64,000 nucleotides of DNA from Roseomonas sp. OT10 (lineage in GTDB: Bacteria > Pseudomonadota > Alphaproteobacteria > Acetobacterales > Acetobacteraceae). Shown in pieces: positions 49,661 to 56,258 of this stretch (within the stretch, counting starts at the first letter, position 1; every line of letters begins with the position of its first letter). Both the position numbers and the translations under genes were made by a program. Location of the stretch: NCBI RefSeq assembly GCF_020991085.1, contig NZ_CP087719.1:2190001-2254000 (forward strand). Reading direction: 5' to 3'. Below the pieces are notes generated by a model. It did no database searches. It was given only the letters and a program-made list of their open reading frames with translations, and had not been told where the DNA came from.

Positions 49661-52516
49661 CTATCCAGCAGCCGGGAGGCCCAGCACGTGAAGCGTGTCG
49701 GCCAACCGGCGGGCAGCCGCGTCGACCGGGAAGCCTGCCTGTGCACGCGCAAGACCGCCGGCGGACAGCCTGGCCCACAGCGTCGCATCTTCGTGCAGAT
49801 CACAGATCAGCGTCGCAAAGGCCTCCGGCGTGTCGGCGATGGCAACATCGTGGCCATCCCGCAGGTGAAGCCCCTCCGCCGCCATCGGCGTGGCCACGCA
49901 GGGGACACCGGCGGCGAGGCTCGATGCCACCCTGCCCCGGGCGCCTGCCCCATTGTGCCATGGCGCAACCGTCAGGCGGAGTCCGTCGAACCAAGGTTCA
50001 AGATCGGCCACGGAACCGAGATACCGGACGCCGGCCGGCCATTGCGACAGCAGCTCATTCGGCAGGTCCGCGCCGACGATCGACAGCGCCGCTCGCGGCA
50101 GGCGCTGCACCACGCGCGGCCAGATGTCGTCGAGCAGGTACCGTAGCGCGTCGGCACCCGGCGCATGCCCGACGTCACTGACGAAGCCGATACCGCTGCG
50201 GCCCCCGAATCCAGGGACCGCAGCCGCCGGGCGGACGGGCCGGGCCGAAGGCATCTCGAACACGGCCGAACCGGGAACATCGCGCAACAGCACGTCCCGT
50301 TCGGTGGACGAGGTCACGAATGTCGCATCGGCCTGCCGCGCCAGATAATACTCCCGCTCCCGGGTCGCGTCTGCGCGGCGAAGCTCTTCCAGGCTGCCGG
50401 TCAGCCGCGCTTGCCGACCCTCGCGCAAGTGGTGAAGGCCGACCGTGTTGAAGACGAGTTTCGCGCGCGGCGCGTGCAGGCGGACAGCCTCGAGATAGCG
50501 CCCACCATGATGGACGCGCGACAGGATGCAGAGCCTCAACGTCTCGCCGTCACTGCGCAGGAAGGCCTGGATCGAGGGCGTGAGGCGCGGCGTCAGGCAG
50601 ATGATGCCCTCCGCCTCCAAGCTCCCGTGAGGGGATGACGGCTCCTGGAAGGAATCATCGCCCGCGAAGACGACCTCATAGCCACAGTCGCGTAGCGCGT
50701 GGGCCTGGACGACGGCGTCGGTCGATTCCGAATCGCGGTCCGGCCCGGGCCAGCATCTGTCGATGATGAGGACGCGCGGCTTGCTCGGTGGGGGCAAGCA
50801 GGCGGGTCCGCCATCCTCGACCACCACGGGCTCGACGAAAGTCGGTCGCCCGCCTGACGGTGCGGCCGGCGGCGGCGAGGGGGCGAGGTGTGTGATGGCG
50901 GTGGTGTCGATGTGGGCGTAGCCGGCATCGTGGGCGGCGATGGCATCGCGGTACTGGCGCAGGCGGTGGGGGAGCTGGAGGGAGGCGCTCCACCAGAGGA
51001 GCTTGGCGCCGCGGCCCAGGGCGCGCCGCAGGCCGGCGGGCATACGCCCGCCGATGCGGCGGACGGGGTTGGCGGCGCGCCAGAGCGTGCTGGCCTCGAT
51101 GGCCTGCAGGCGGTCCCGGCCGAGCTGCAGCTCCGACCGAGCGTCGCGTTCGGCGGCGGCGCTGGCCTCGGCCTGGGCGATGGCCGCGGCGCGGTCGGCG
51201 CGCAGCGCCGCCGCCTCCGCCTCGGCCCGCGCGCGCAGCTGGGCGACGGCCGCCGCGCTGTCGGCCCGCAGCATCGCCGCCTCCGCCTCCGCCTGCGCGC
51301 GGAGCTGGGCCAGGGCCGCCGCGCTGTCCGCCCGCAGCGCCGCCGCCTCCGCCTCCGCCTGCGCGCGGAGCTGGGCCAGGGCCGCCGCGCCGTCTGCCCG
51401 CAGCGCCGCCGCCTCCGCCTCGGCCTGCGCGCGGAGCTGGGCCAGGGCCGCCGCACTGTCGGCCCGCAGCGTCGCCACCTCGGCCCTGGCCGCGCCACAG
51501 GCCTCGATCTCGCGGCGCAGCCGGTCCTCCAGCCCGCTCACCCGCTGGTCCAGGCGCAGCGACAGGTAGCGGCGGCAATCCGCCTCGGTCAGCGCGACCA
51601 CGTTGAAGTACTCGGGGCCCCCGGGCTCGGTGCCGTCGTCGCCGGCATGCAGCTCGCGCCCGATCCCGCTCTGGCCCAGGTGGAAGATGCGGTAGCCCCA
51701 TCCCCGGAGCTGGGTCAGCAGGGCATCGGCGGTGGTGCCGCTGACGCGGCCCAGCCAGTAGGGGAAGAGCTCGATCAGCAGGATCGGCCGGTCGCGGGCA
51801 ATCAGCCCCTGCGCGCCGCGCAGCACCAGCGGCTCGGCCCCTTCCACGTCGATCTTGATCAGCCGCACCGGGCCGTCGAGGCCGAGCGCGTCGAGCGGGC
51901 GCACCGGCACCCGCCCCAGCGAGACCGCGCCCTCGGGCATGCTGCGCGGGACGATGAAGCTGTGGCCGGGATTGCGCTCGTCCGGCACCCAGGCCAGGTC
52001 GATCGCCCCCTCCTCAGCGCCCAGCGCGATCATCTCCACCCGGCAGCGGTCCTCGAAGCCGTTGTCAACGATGGACTGGCGCAGGCGGCCGGCCAGGTCC
52101 GCGCGCGGCTCGAAGGCATGCACCCGGCCCCGCGGCCCCACCGCCTGCGCCGCCAGCACCGAGAACCAGCCGATGTTCGCCCCGACGTCGATGAAGCCGT
52201 CGCCGGGCTCCAGCACGGCGAGGATGAAGTCGGTCTCCGCCGGCTCCCAGGACCCGCGCAGGCAGCCCAGCGAGACGCCGTGATCGGCCAGGTCGAGCCA
52301 CAGCCGCAGCCCGTCGCGGATCTCCGTGCAGACCCACTTGCTGCGCGCGAACACGTCAACCGCCATCCGGGCGCGGAACTCCTCGCCCTCCAGCAGCCGC
52401 TGCCCCAGCGCCGTCAGCGATGCCGCCTCCTGCGCCGACGCTATCGCCGCCTCGCTCTCCGGCTCGCGACCCAGGATCGCTCCGTAAATCGCTCCAACCT
52501 CTTCACGGCTGATCAT
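49661..52516 (-). CDS. FkbM methyltransferase / hendecad coiled coil / glycosyltransferase fusion (copy A)
   Basis: 951 aa. Residues 1-55 resemble a DUF4214 segment (YGAILGREPESE, LLEGEEFRAR). FkbM methyltransferase about 90-290: motif I DVGANIGWFSV (110-120), HAFEPR, IKIDVEGAE (220-228). Residues about 320-480 form a long Ala/Leu/Arg/Glu coiled coil with an 11-residue repeat. The last 380 residues (after 548) are a GT4-type glycosyltransferase (RVLIIDRCWPGPDRDSES onward, with SVADLEPWFDGLRLTVAPW and ASSLAAGVPCVATPMAAEG). Residues 1-548 are almost identical to the gene upstream. The start at 52516 overlaps that gene by 14 nt. Likely assembles or decorates a surface polysaccharide. Confidence 0.88.
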   Translation of the reverse strand: MISREEVGAIYGAILGREPESEAAIASAQEAASLTALGQRLLEGEEFRARMAVDVFARSKWVCTEIRDGLRLWLDLADHGVSLGCLRGSWEPAETDFILAVLEPGDGFIDVGANIGWFSVLAAQAVGPRGRVHAFEPRADLAGRLRQSIVDNGFEDRCRVEMIALGAEEGAIDLAWVPDERNPGHSFIVPRSMPEGAVSLGRVPVRPLDALGLDGPVRLIKIDVEGAEPLVLRGAQGLIARDRPILLIELFPYWLGRVSGTTADALLTQLRGWGYRIFHLGQSGIGRELHAGDDGTEPGGPEYFNVVALTEADCRRYLSLRLDQRVSGLEDRLRREIEACGAARAEVATLRADSAAALAQLRAQAEAEAAALRADGAAALAQLRAQAEAEAAALRADSAAALAQLRAQAEAEAAMLRADSAAAVAQLRARAEAEAAALRADRAAAIAQAEASAAAERDARSELQLGRDRLQAIEASTLWRAANPVRRIGGRMPAGLRRALGRGAKLLWWSASLQLPHRLRQYRDAIAAHDAGYAHIDTTAITHLAPSPPPAAPSGGRPTFVEPVVVEDGGPACLPPPSKPRVLIIDRCWPGPDRDSESTDAVVQAHALRDCGYEVVFAGDDSFQEPSSPHGSLEAEGIICLTPRLTPSIQAFLRSDGETLRLCILSRVHHGGRYLEAVRLHAPRAKLVFNTVGLHHLREGRQARLTGSLEELRRADATREREYYLARQADATFVTSSTERDVLLRDVPGSAVFEMPSARPVRPAAAVPGFGGRSGIGFVSDVGHAPGADALRYLLDDIWPRVVQRLPRAALSIVGADLPNELLSQWPAGVRYLGSVADLEPWFDGLRLTVAPWHNGAGARGRVASSLAAGVPCVATPMAAEGLHLRDGHDVAIADTPEAFATLICDLHEDATLWARLSAGGLARAQAGFPVDAAARRLADTLHVLGLPAAG
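50873..52516 (-). repeat. 1,644-bp duplicated module, copy A
   Basis: Aligned to 54615-56258 at a constant offset of 3,742 bp with no gaps. By eye there are about 15 mismatches, that is about 99 % identity. Ends coincide with the start codon and with residue 548. It covers the DUF4214-like, FkbM and coiled-coil parts. Confidence 0.92.
51206..51469 (-). repeat. Four 66-bp in-frame repeats coding a hendecad coiled coil (copy A)
   Basis: Unit start positions on the minus strand are 51469, 51403, 51337 and 51271, with a degenerate fifth from 51205. Each unit codes LRADSAAALAQ followed by LRAQAEAEAAA with small changes, so the basic period is 11 residues with Leu in the first position. The same array occurs in copy B. 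Confidence 0.88.

Positions 52517-56258: not shown

Follow-up and report, generated by a model that had tools for sequence, protein, structure and literature searches.

A shared FkbM and coiled-coil head evolves in concert in two tandem glycosyltransferase fusion genes of Roseomonas sp. OT10 and two related genera

The gene pair and its shared head

The window analysed here is the whole 64,000-nucleotide stretch of the Roseomonas sp. OT10 genome (contig NZ_CP087719.1, positions 2,190,001 to 2,254,000). It carries two adjacent fusion genes, A and B, which begin with the same head and end in different glycosyltransferase tails (Table 1). Pairwise alignment of the two head copies (offset 3742) spans 1,644 nt, has no gaps, and shows exactly 15 mismatches, in agreement with the count of about 15 that was made by eye in the initial annotation. 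Outside the head, identity between A and B falls abruptly to 14-25 of 60 bases on both sides, and the tails are unrelated to each other. The 5' edge of the head is the ATG of gene A (52516), and the 3' edge is codon 548, in a Pro-rich spacer after the linker. The break points thus lie on a start codon and a domain edge, as first described, and the tract ends there because homology between the genes stops there. An alternative start of gene B is an in-frame ATG 12 codons upstream, at 56294, and the frame of gene A extends upstream as far as an ATG at 52807.

Pfam analysis bore out the domain layout read from the sequence. FkbM was found in the heads of both genes (PF05050/TIGR01444 matches above the cut-off). 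Tail A matched GT4 (PF13692), and tail B matched both GT4 and GT2 (PF00535). The FkbM motif is GADIGW in the B copy of the window, and GANIGW in the A copy and in the four copies of two related genomes, G367 and G455. In the Roseomonas sp. OT10 genome, the only head copies are those of A and B, and the next best FkbM match has 42% identity over residues 69-248. This genome is assembled in only 3 contigs (5.33, 0.29, and 0.07 Mb), so a false tandem copy is unlikely.

Table 1. Features of the gene pair and its block in the window
Feature	Position	Strand	Evidence
Gene A: FkbM head, coiled coil, linker, GT4 tail; 951 aa	49661..52516	-	Alignment, Pfam, orthologs in G367/G455
Gene B: FkbM head, coiled coil, linker, GT4 + GT2 tail; 1251 aa	52503..56258	-	Alignment, Pfam, orthologs in G367/G455
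Homogenised head in A, 548 codons	50873..52516	-	15 mismatches, no gaps against B copy; by-genome grouping
Homogenised head in B, 548 codons	54615..56258	-	Alignment with A copy; by-genome grouping
Tail A, GT4 glycosyltransferase	49661..50872	-	Pfam; 70-81% aa identity across three loci
Tail B, GT4 + GT2 glycosyltransferases	52503..54614	-	Pfam; 79-83% aa identity across three loci
66-nt (22-residue) coiled-coil repeats, A head	51173..51485	-	Repeat analysis; helix 311-482 in single-sequence model
66-nt coiled-coil repeats, B head	54915..55227	-	Repeat analysis
Gene C, 654 aa, C-terminal methyltransferase domain; next gene after A in three loci	47690..49654	-	Pfam, synteny
AlgX-like gene of block	46526..47662	+	PF16822; 80-84% aa identity in two other loci
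MBOAT O-acyltransferase gene of block	45105..46526	+	PF03062; 83-86% aa identity in two other loci

The conserved block and its distribution

Genes A and B belong to a block of five genes (MBOAT, AlgX-like, C, A, and B) that is syntenic in G367 and G455, which represent other genera of the family. DNA identity of the block to the window is 77% in G367 and 81% in G455. The head is present in both genes of each genome, and by Pfam each of these four genes has FkbM and the tail expected for it.

Among 395 genomes of the order, five matched the head at E 1e-36: the Roseomonas sp. OT10 genome itself, G367 and G455, which carry the head pair, and G402 and G331, which carry one more distant copy each (49-50% identity). 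Fourteen other genomes of the same genus gave no head match at this threshold, and the head occurs in 1 of 21 genomes of the G367 genus. No head match exceeded 46% identity in 60 relatives, apart from the genome's own, or 42% among the matches listed for 299 family genomes. Gene C gave matches in 65 of 397 family genomes at E 1e-40, including a full-length ortholog of 76% identity in G367. In plasmid and phage collections, no head was found at 60% identity or more, and plasmid matches at the DNA level extended over no more than 4% of the query. The best head identity among the matches listed was 39% in viral contigs and 43% in a genome contig collection.

Third-position GC (GC3) of the window block outside the heads is 0.77-0.84, and most other genes of the window lie at 0.85-0.98. 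From this lower GC3 and the absence of the block from the 14 congeners, we infer that the block travels between genera. A tRNA-Ser (gga) gene at 44498-44588, about 0.5 kb ahead of the block (45105-56294), is a possible integration site, and the sequences flanking the block are different in the other genera. With up to 2 mismatches allowed, the window contained no further copy of the 22 to 40 bases at the 3' end of the tRNA gene.

Coiled coil and linker

The head contains a coiled coil of 66-nt repeats, and 4 of the 15 head mismatches fall within 18 nt of these repeats. A single-sequence structure model of A, made with no alignment, predicted one continuous helix over residues 311-482; the mean pLDDT of the model is 45, and the helix alone is usable. 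In a search of solved structures, methyltransferases were the only matches, at E 1e-5 or weaker. The length of the coil, counted from residue 339 to the linker, is 137 residues in both copies of the window, 151 in both copies of G367, and 103 in both copies of G455. Coil length therefore varies between genomes and never between the copies of one genome. Two related methyltransferase-coil-GT4 proteins of one genus (L285:2693-5173, 826 aa, and L286:2260-5295, 1011 aa) differ mainly in the number of coil repeats, so coil length changes fast in that genus too.

A profile of the linker (50 positions) matched 8 of 40 genomes at E 0.01, the genome itself included and several of the matches weak, and a single-sequence search matched 5 of 60 genomes, again including its own. 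With these counts, the linker as a general swap point was kept as a lead and not adopted. A second protein of the Roseomonas sp. OT10 genome (L180, G000:C1:3133757-3133834) also has a similar linker, which precedes a GT4 domain with distant similarity to tail A (31%). Another protein, L269:3624-7982, joins an N-terminal region, a coil-like stretch, and a linker like that of the window to WbsX-GT4-GT2 in a single chain, and joints of this type recur with different heads. Its N-terminal region looks sulfotransferase-like by eye; Pfam listed no match there.

Grouping of the heads by genome

Heads of one genome are 99.1-99.5% identical, and heads of different genomes are 79-83% identical. Within genomes, the copies differ at 15 of 1644 sites in the window, 9 of 1650 in G367, and 8 of 1566 in G455, with no indels in any of the three pairs. 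Between genomes, 265-342 differences were counted over 1500-1602 compared sites. Informative sites that group the heads by genome, by gene, or in a crossed manner numbered 326:0:0, 254:0:0, and 305:0:0 in the three genome pairs, and a separate alignment of the window and G367 alone gave 327:0:0. For the FkbM part, the ortholog topology, in which all A heads form one group and all B heads another, is rejected, with a deficit of 869 log units (AU p 1.3e-13).

Synonymous divergence followed the same pattern. dS (NG86) is 0.000-0.020 within head pairs, 0.37-0.62 between genomes for parts of the head, and 0.48-0.99 between genomes for the tails and neighbours. The low dS within pairs means that selection at the protein level alone is insufficient to explain the identity of the heads. 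Each of the two tails is conserved as a stable ortholog in all three genera. Paralogous heads are closer than orthologous ones and the duplication predates the split of the lineages, which are the two marks of concerted evolution. These results, which rest on three loci, show that the heads undergo concerted evolution and that it is confined to the fused head. The first codon of the tract is the start codon in the window and G455; in G367, the tract starts two codons further on.

Explanations for the identical heads

A and B are very probably old tandem fusions whose shared head evolves in concert, most likely by gene conversion. The common ancestor of the three loci would already have carried both fusions, and in each lineage homologous gene conversion, acting between direct repeats some 1.6 kb long, would have overwritten one head with the sequence of the other. 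The tract boundaries would be the old fusion points, and the tails, which have no mutual homology, would be free to diverge. Gene conversion had been offered in the initial annotation as one of two explanations, and the grouping by genome at every informative site supports it. The other, a very recent tandem duplication in the window lineage followed by replacement of one tail, fits the 99.1% identity and low dS (0.01-0.02) of the window heads, but it has next to no probability left. Both fusions, heads and tails together, are syntenic in two other genera, where the tails and neighbouring genes have diverged, and these loci refute it unless both assemblies are wrong. That the identity of the heads was produced by repeat collapse during assembly is highly improbable. 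G367 (about 10 contigs) and G455 (about 70 contigs) may not be long-read assemblies, and their head differences are clustered, near both ends in G367 (edge-distance KS p 9e-7) and in the 3' part in G455 (KS p 8e-6), a pattern expected of conversion and of partial repeat collapse alike. Against an artefact, the window heads, from a genome in 3 contigs, show evenly spread differences (KS p 0.82) and no internal tract edge, and the same picture comes from three separate assemblies. Collapse should not bring copies about 20% apart, the divergence of the orthologs, to 99.5% identity.

Grouping by genome is also predicted if a single ancestral head was copied onto tail B independently in three lineages, and the head end before tail B does vary slightly (codons 548, 550, and 522). 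Such an origin is nevertheless quite improbable, as tail B would have had to be joined in frame three times, at the same GT4 domain start and the same position in the block, with the copied head beginning each time at the start codon or within two codons of it. Concerted evolution could also proceed by unequal crossing-over, in which head-tail units are gained and lost. Tandem direct repeats permit this process, it would have the same outcome as conversion, and the same by-genome grouping would be expected, which leaves it a minor but real possibility. It is opposed by the number of units: exactly two, with the same tails, were found in 3 of 3 loci, and no locus had one or three. Gene conversion is the more likely mechanism.

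Base composition of the heads

In the window, GC3 is 0.95 in the heads and steps down at the tract edge to the 0.80-0.82 of the tails; G367 and G455 have hardly any such step. Change points were placed at codon 551 in A and codon 558 in B, with log-likelihood gains of 25 and 29, and none of the 300 permutations run for each gene gained more than 7.6. The step alone could be read as a foreign head, a reading weakened by the heads of G367 and G455, which have little step. An additional proposal, that GC-biased conversion is the cause of the high GC3 of the window heads, agrees with these change points. It is also consistent with the single-copy genes of G402 and G331, in which head and tail GC3 are alike. 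Polarised changes were compared as well, and their polarity is weak because the rooting of the three loci is uncertain: synonymous GC-to-AT changes are scarce in the window head (2 of 210, against 105 of 1023 in the rest of the block; p 5e-7), which favours the proposal, but head changes in G367 and G455 run towards AT, with AT-to-GC to GC-to-AT ratios of 24:86 and 15:54 (217:393 and 114:291 in the rest of the block). As a general rule, GC-biased conversion is unsupported, as one lineage, that of the window, fits and two do not, and it is an unlikely driver of the base composition.

Origin of the fusions

Homologs of the tails occur elsewhere with other partners. At E 1e-20, tail B matched 115 of 299 family genomes, and in 16 of 16 other full genes read, taken from among the better matches, it is preceded by a WbsX domain (PF14307). 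Tail A homologs stand alone in 4 of 14 genomes of the same genus (45-49% identity). In four further genes, tail A follows other heads. Two of these heads are pyruvyltransferase-like, one of them with a score under the Pfam cut-off, and the remaining two are a different methyltransferase. Each of the four heads is followed by coil-like sequence and a similar linker, and in the two genes with pyruvyltransferase-like heads, the next gene is an ortholog of C. In G402 and G331, a single gene has the A layout (FkbM, coil, and GT4, by Pfam), and no tail B was found in the 20 kb examined. Since tail B is found elsewhere behind WbsX and two distant genomes have single-copy genes of the A layout, the A layout is most likely the older, and B probably acquired its head later, in place of WbsX. 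The closest relative of tail B outside the block, L268:4154-8215, is a WbsX-GT4-GT2 protein with an extra C-terminal methyltransferase domain.

The proposal that the tails diversify through a modular swapping system holds in part. At the depth of three genera, the tails are conserved and no swapping is seen; over a longer scale, the partners of tails A and B do differ, as described above.

Relation to known systems

The closest evolutionary precedent is the pair mtrA-1 and mtrA-2 of methanogens, for which domain shuffling followed by conversion limited to the shared domain was described (PMC4632066). Like A and B, these genes lie in tandem in one operon, one copy is fused to a different domain, and their conversion is limited to the shared domain and has lasted across lineages (PMC4632066). 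They encode an archaeal methanogenesis protein whose unshared part is a transmembrane domain (PMC4632066), whereas the unshared parts of A and B are glycosyltransferases. Unlike that of mtrA-1/mtrA-2, the shared part of A and B includes a coiled coil that changes length in both copies. A survey described 26 cases of long-lasting concerted evolution in prokaryotes, such as tuf and fla, in which, as in A and B, paralogs are closer than orthologs and synonymous divergence within genomes is low (PMC6053082). In contrast to these cases, A and B are homogenised over only part of each gene. The stem "glycosyl" is absent from the main text of this survey (PMC6053082). Our literature search found no paper that combined FkbM and gene conversion, and none that joined FkbM, glycosyltransferase, coiled-coil, fusion, and polysaccharide.

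In domain content, A and B resemble WbdD (PMC3482155) and the coiled-coil terminators of Klebsiella O4 and O7 (PMC11231755), multi-module proteins in which a methyltransferase and a coiled coil are tied to glycan polymerisation. In WbdD of E. coli O9a, the methyltransferase is accompanied by a kinase (PMC3482155). The methyltransferase of A and B is instead of the FkbM family, and no kinase domain was found beside it in the heads by Pfam at E 0.001, so A and B are not WbdD-type enzymes. A WbdD-type chain terminator was accordingly rejected as an identification, and the function of A and B is a predicted one. Within the same bacterial family, the C-terminal GT4-GT2 half of the WbsX-GT4-GT2 proteins is homologous to tail B (56% identity in G210); the N-terminal half is WbsX, where gene B has FkbM and the coil.

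Predicted function and significance

From their domains, A and B probably build surface sugar chains. By analogy with the coiled-coil terminators, a methyltransferase held apart from the glycosyltransferases by a coil could act on chains of a defined length, capping or modifying them. A and B would then act like the coiled-coil ruler enzymes of O-antigen synthesis, with the same coil in both enzymes of a genome. The identical coil in both enzymes of each of the three genomes suggests a shared complex. A tentative and rather doubtful extension is that selection keeps the heads identical because A and B work in a mixed coiled-coil complex in which only matching coils pair, placing the methyltransferase at an equal distance from all three glycosyltransferase domains.

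In A and B, homogenisation is limited to one fused domain within the same operon and the same genome, which makes the pair a clean bacterial example. The unconverted tails and neighbours serve as built-in controls in three genera. Conversion tracts and their effect on base composition are therefore directly testable in A and B, as is a possible need for matching coiled coils in two glycan enzymes. The pair also carries a warning, as trees built from such heads track genomes and not genes. If the mixed complex exists, gene conversion would be a route by which coil length, and hence glycan length, could change in both enzymes together.
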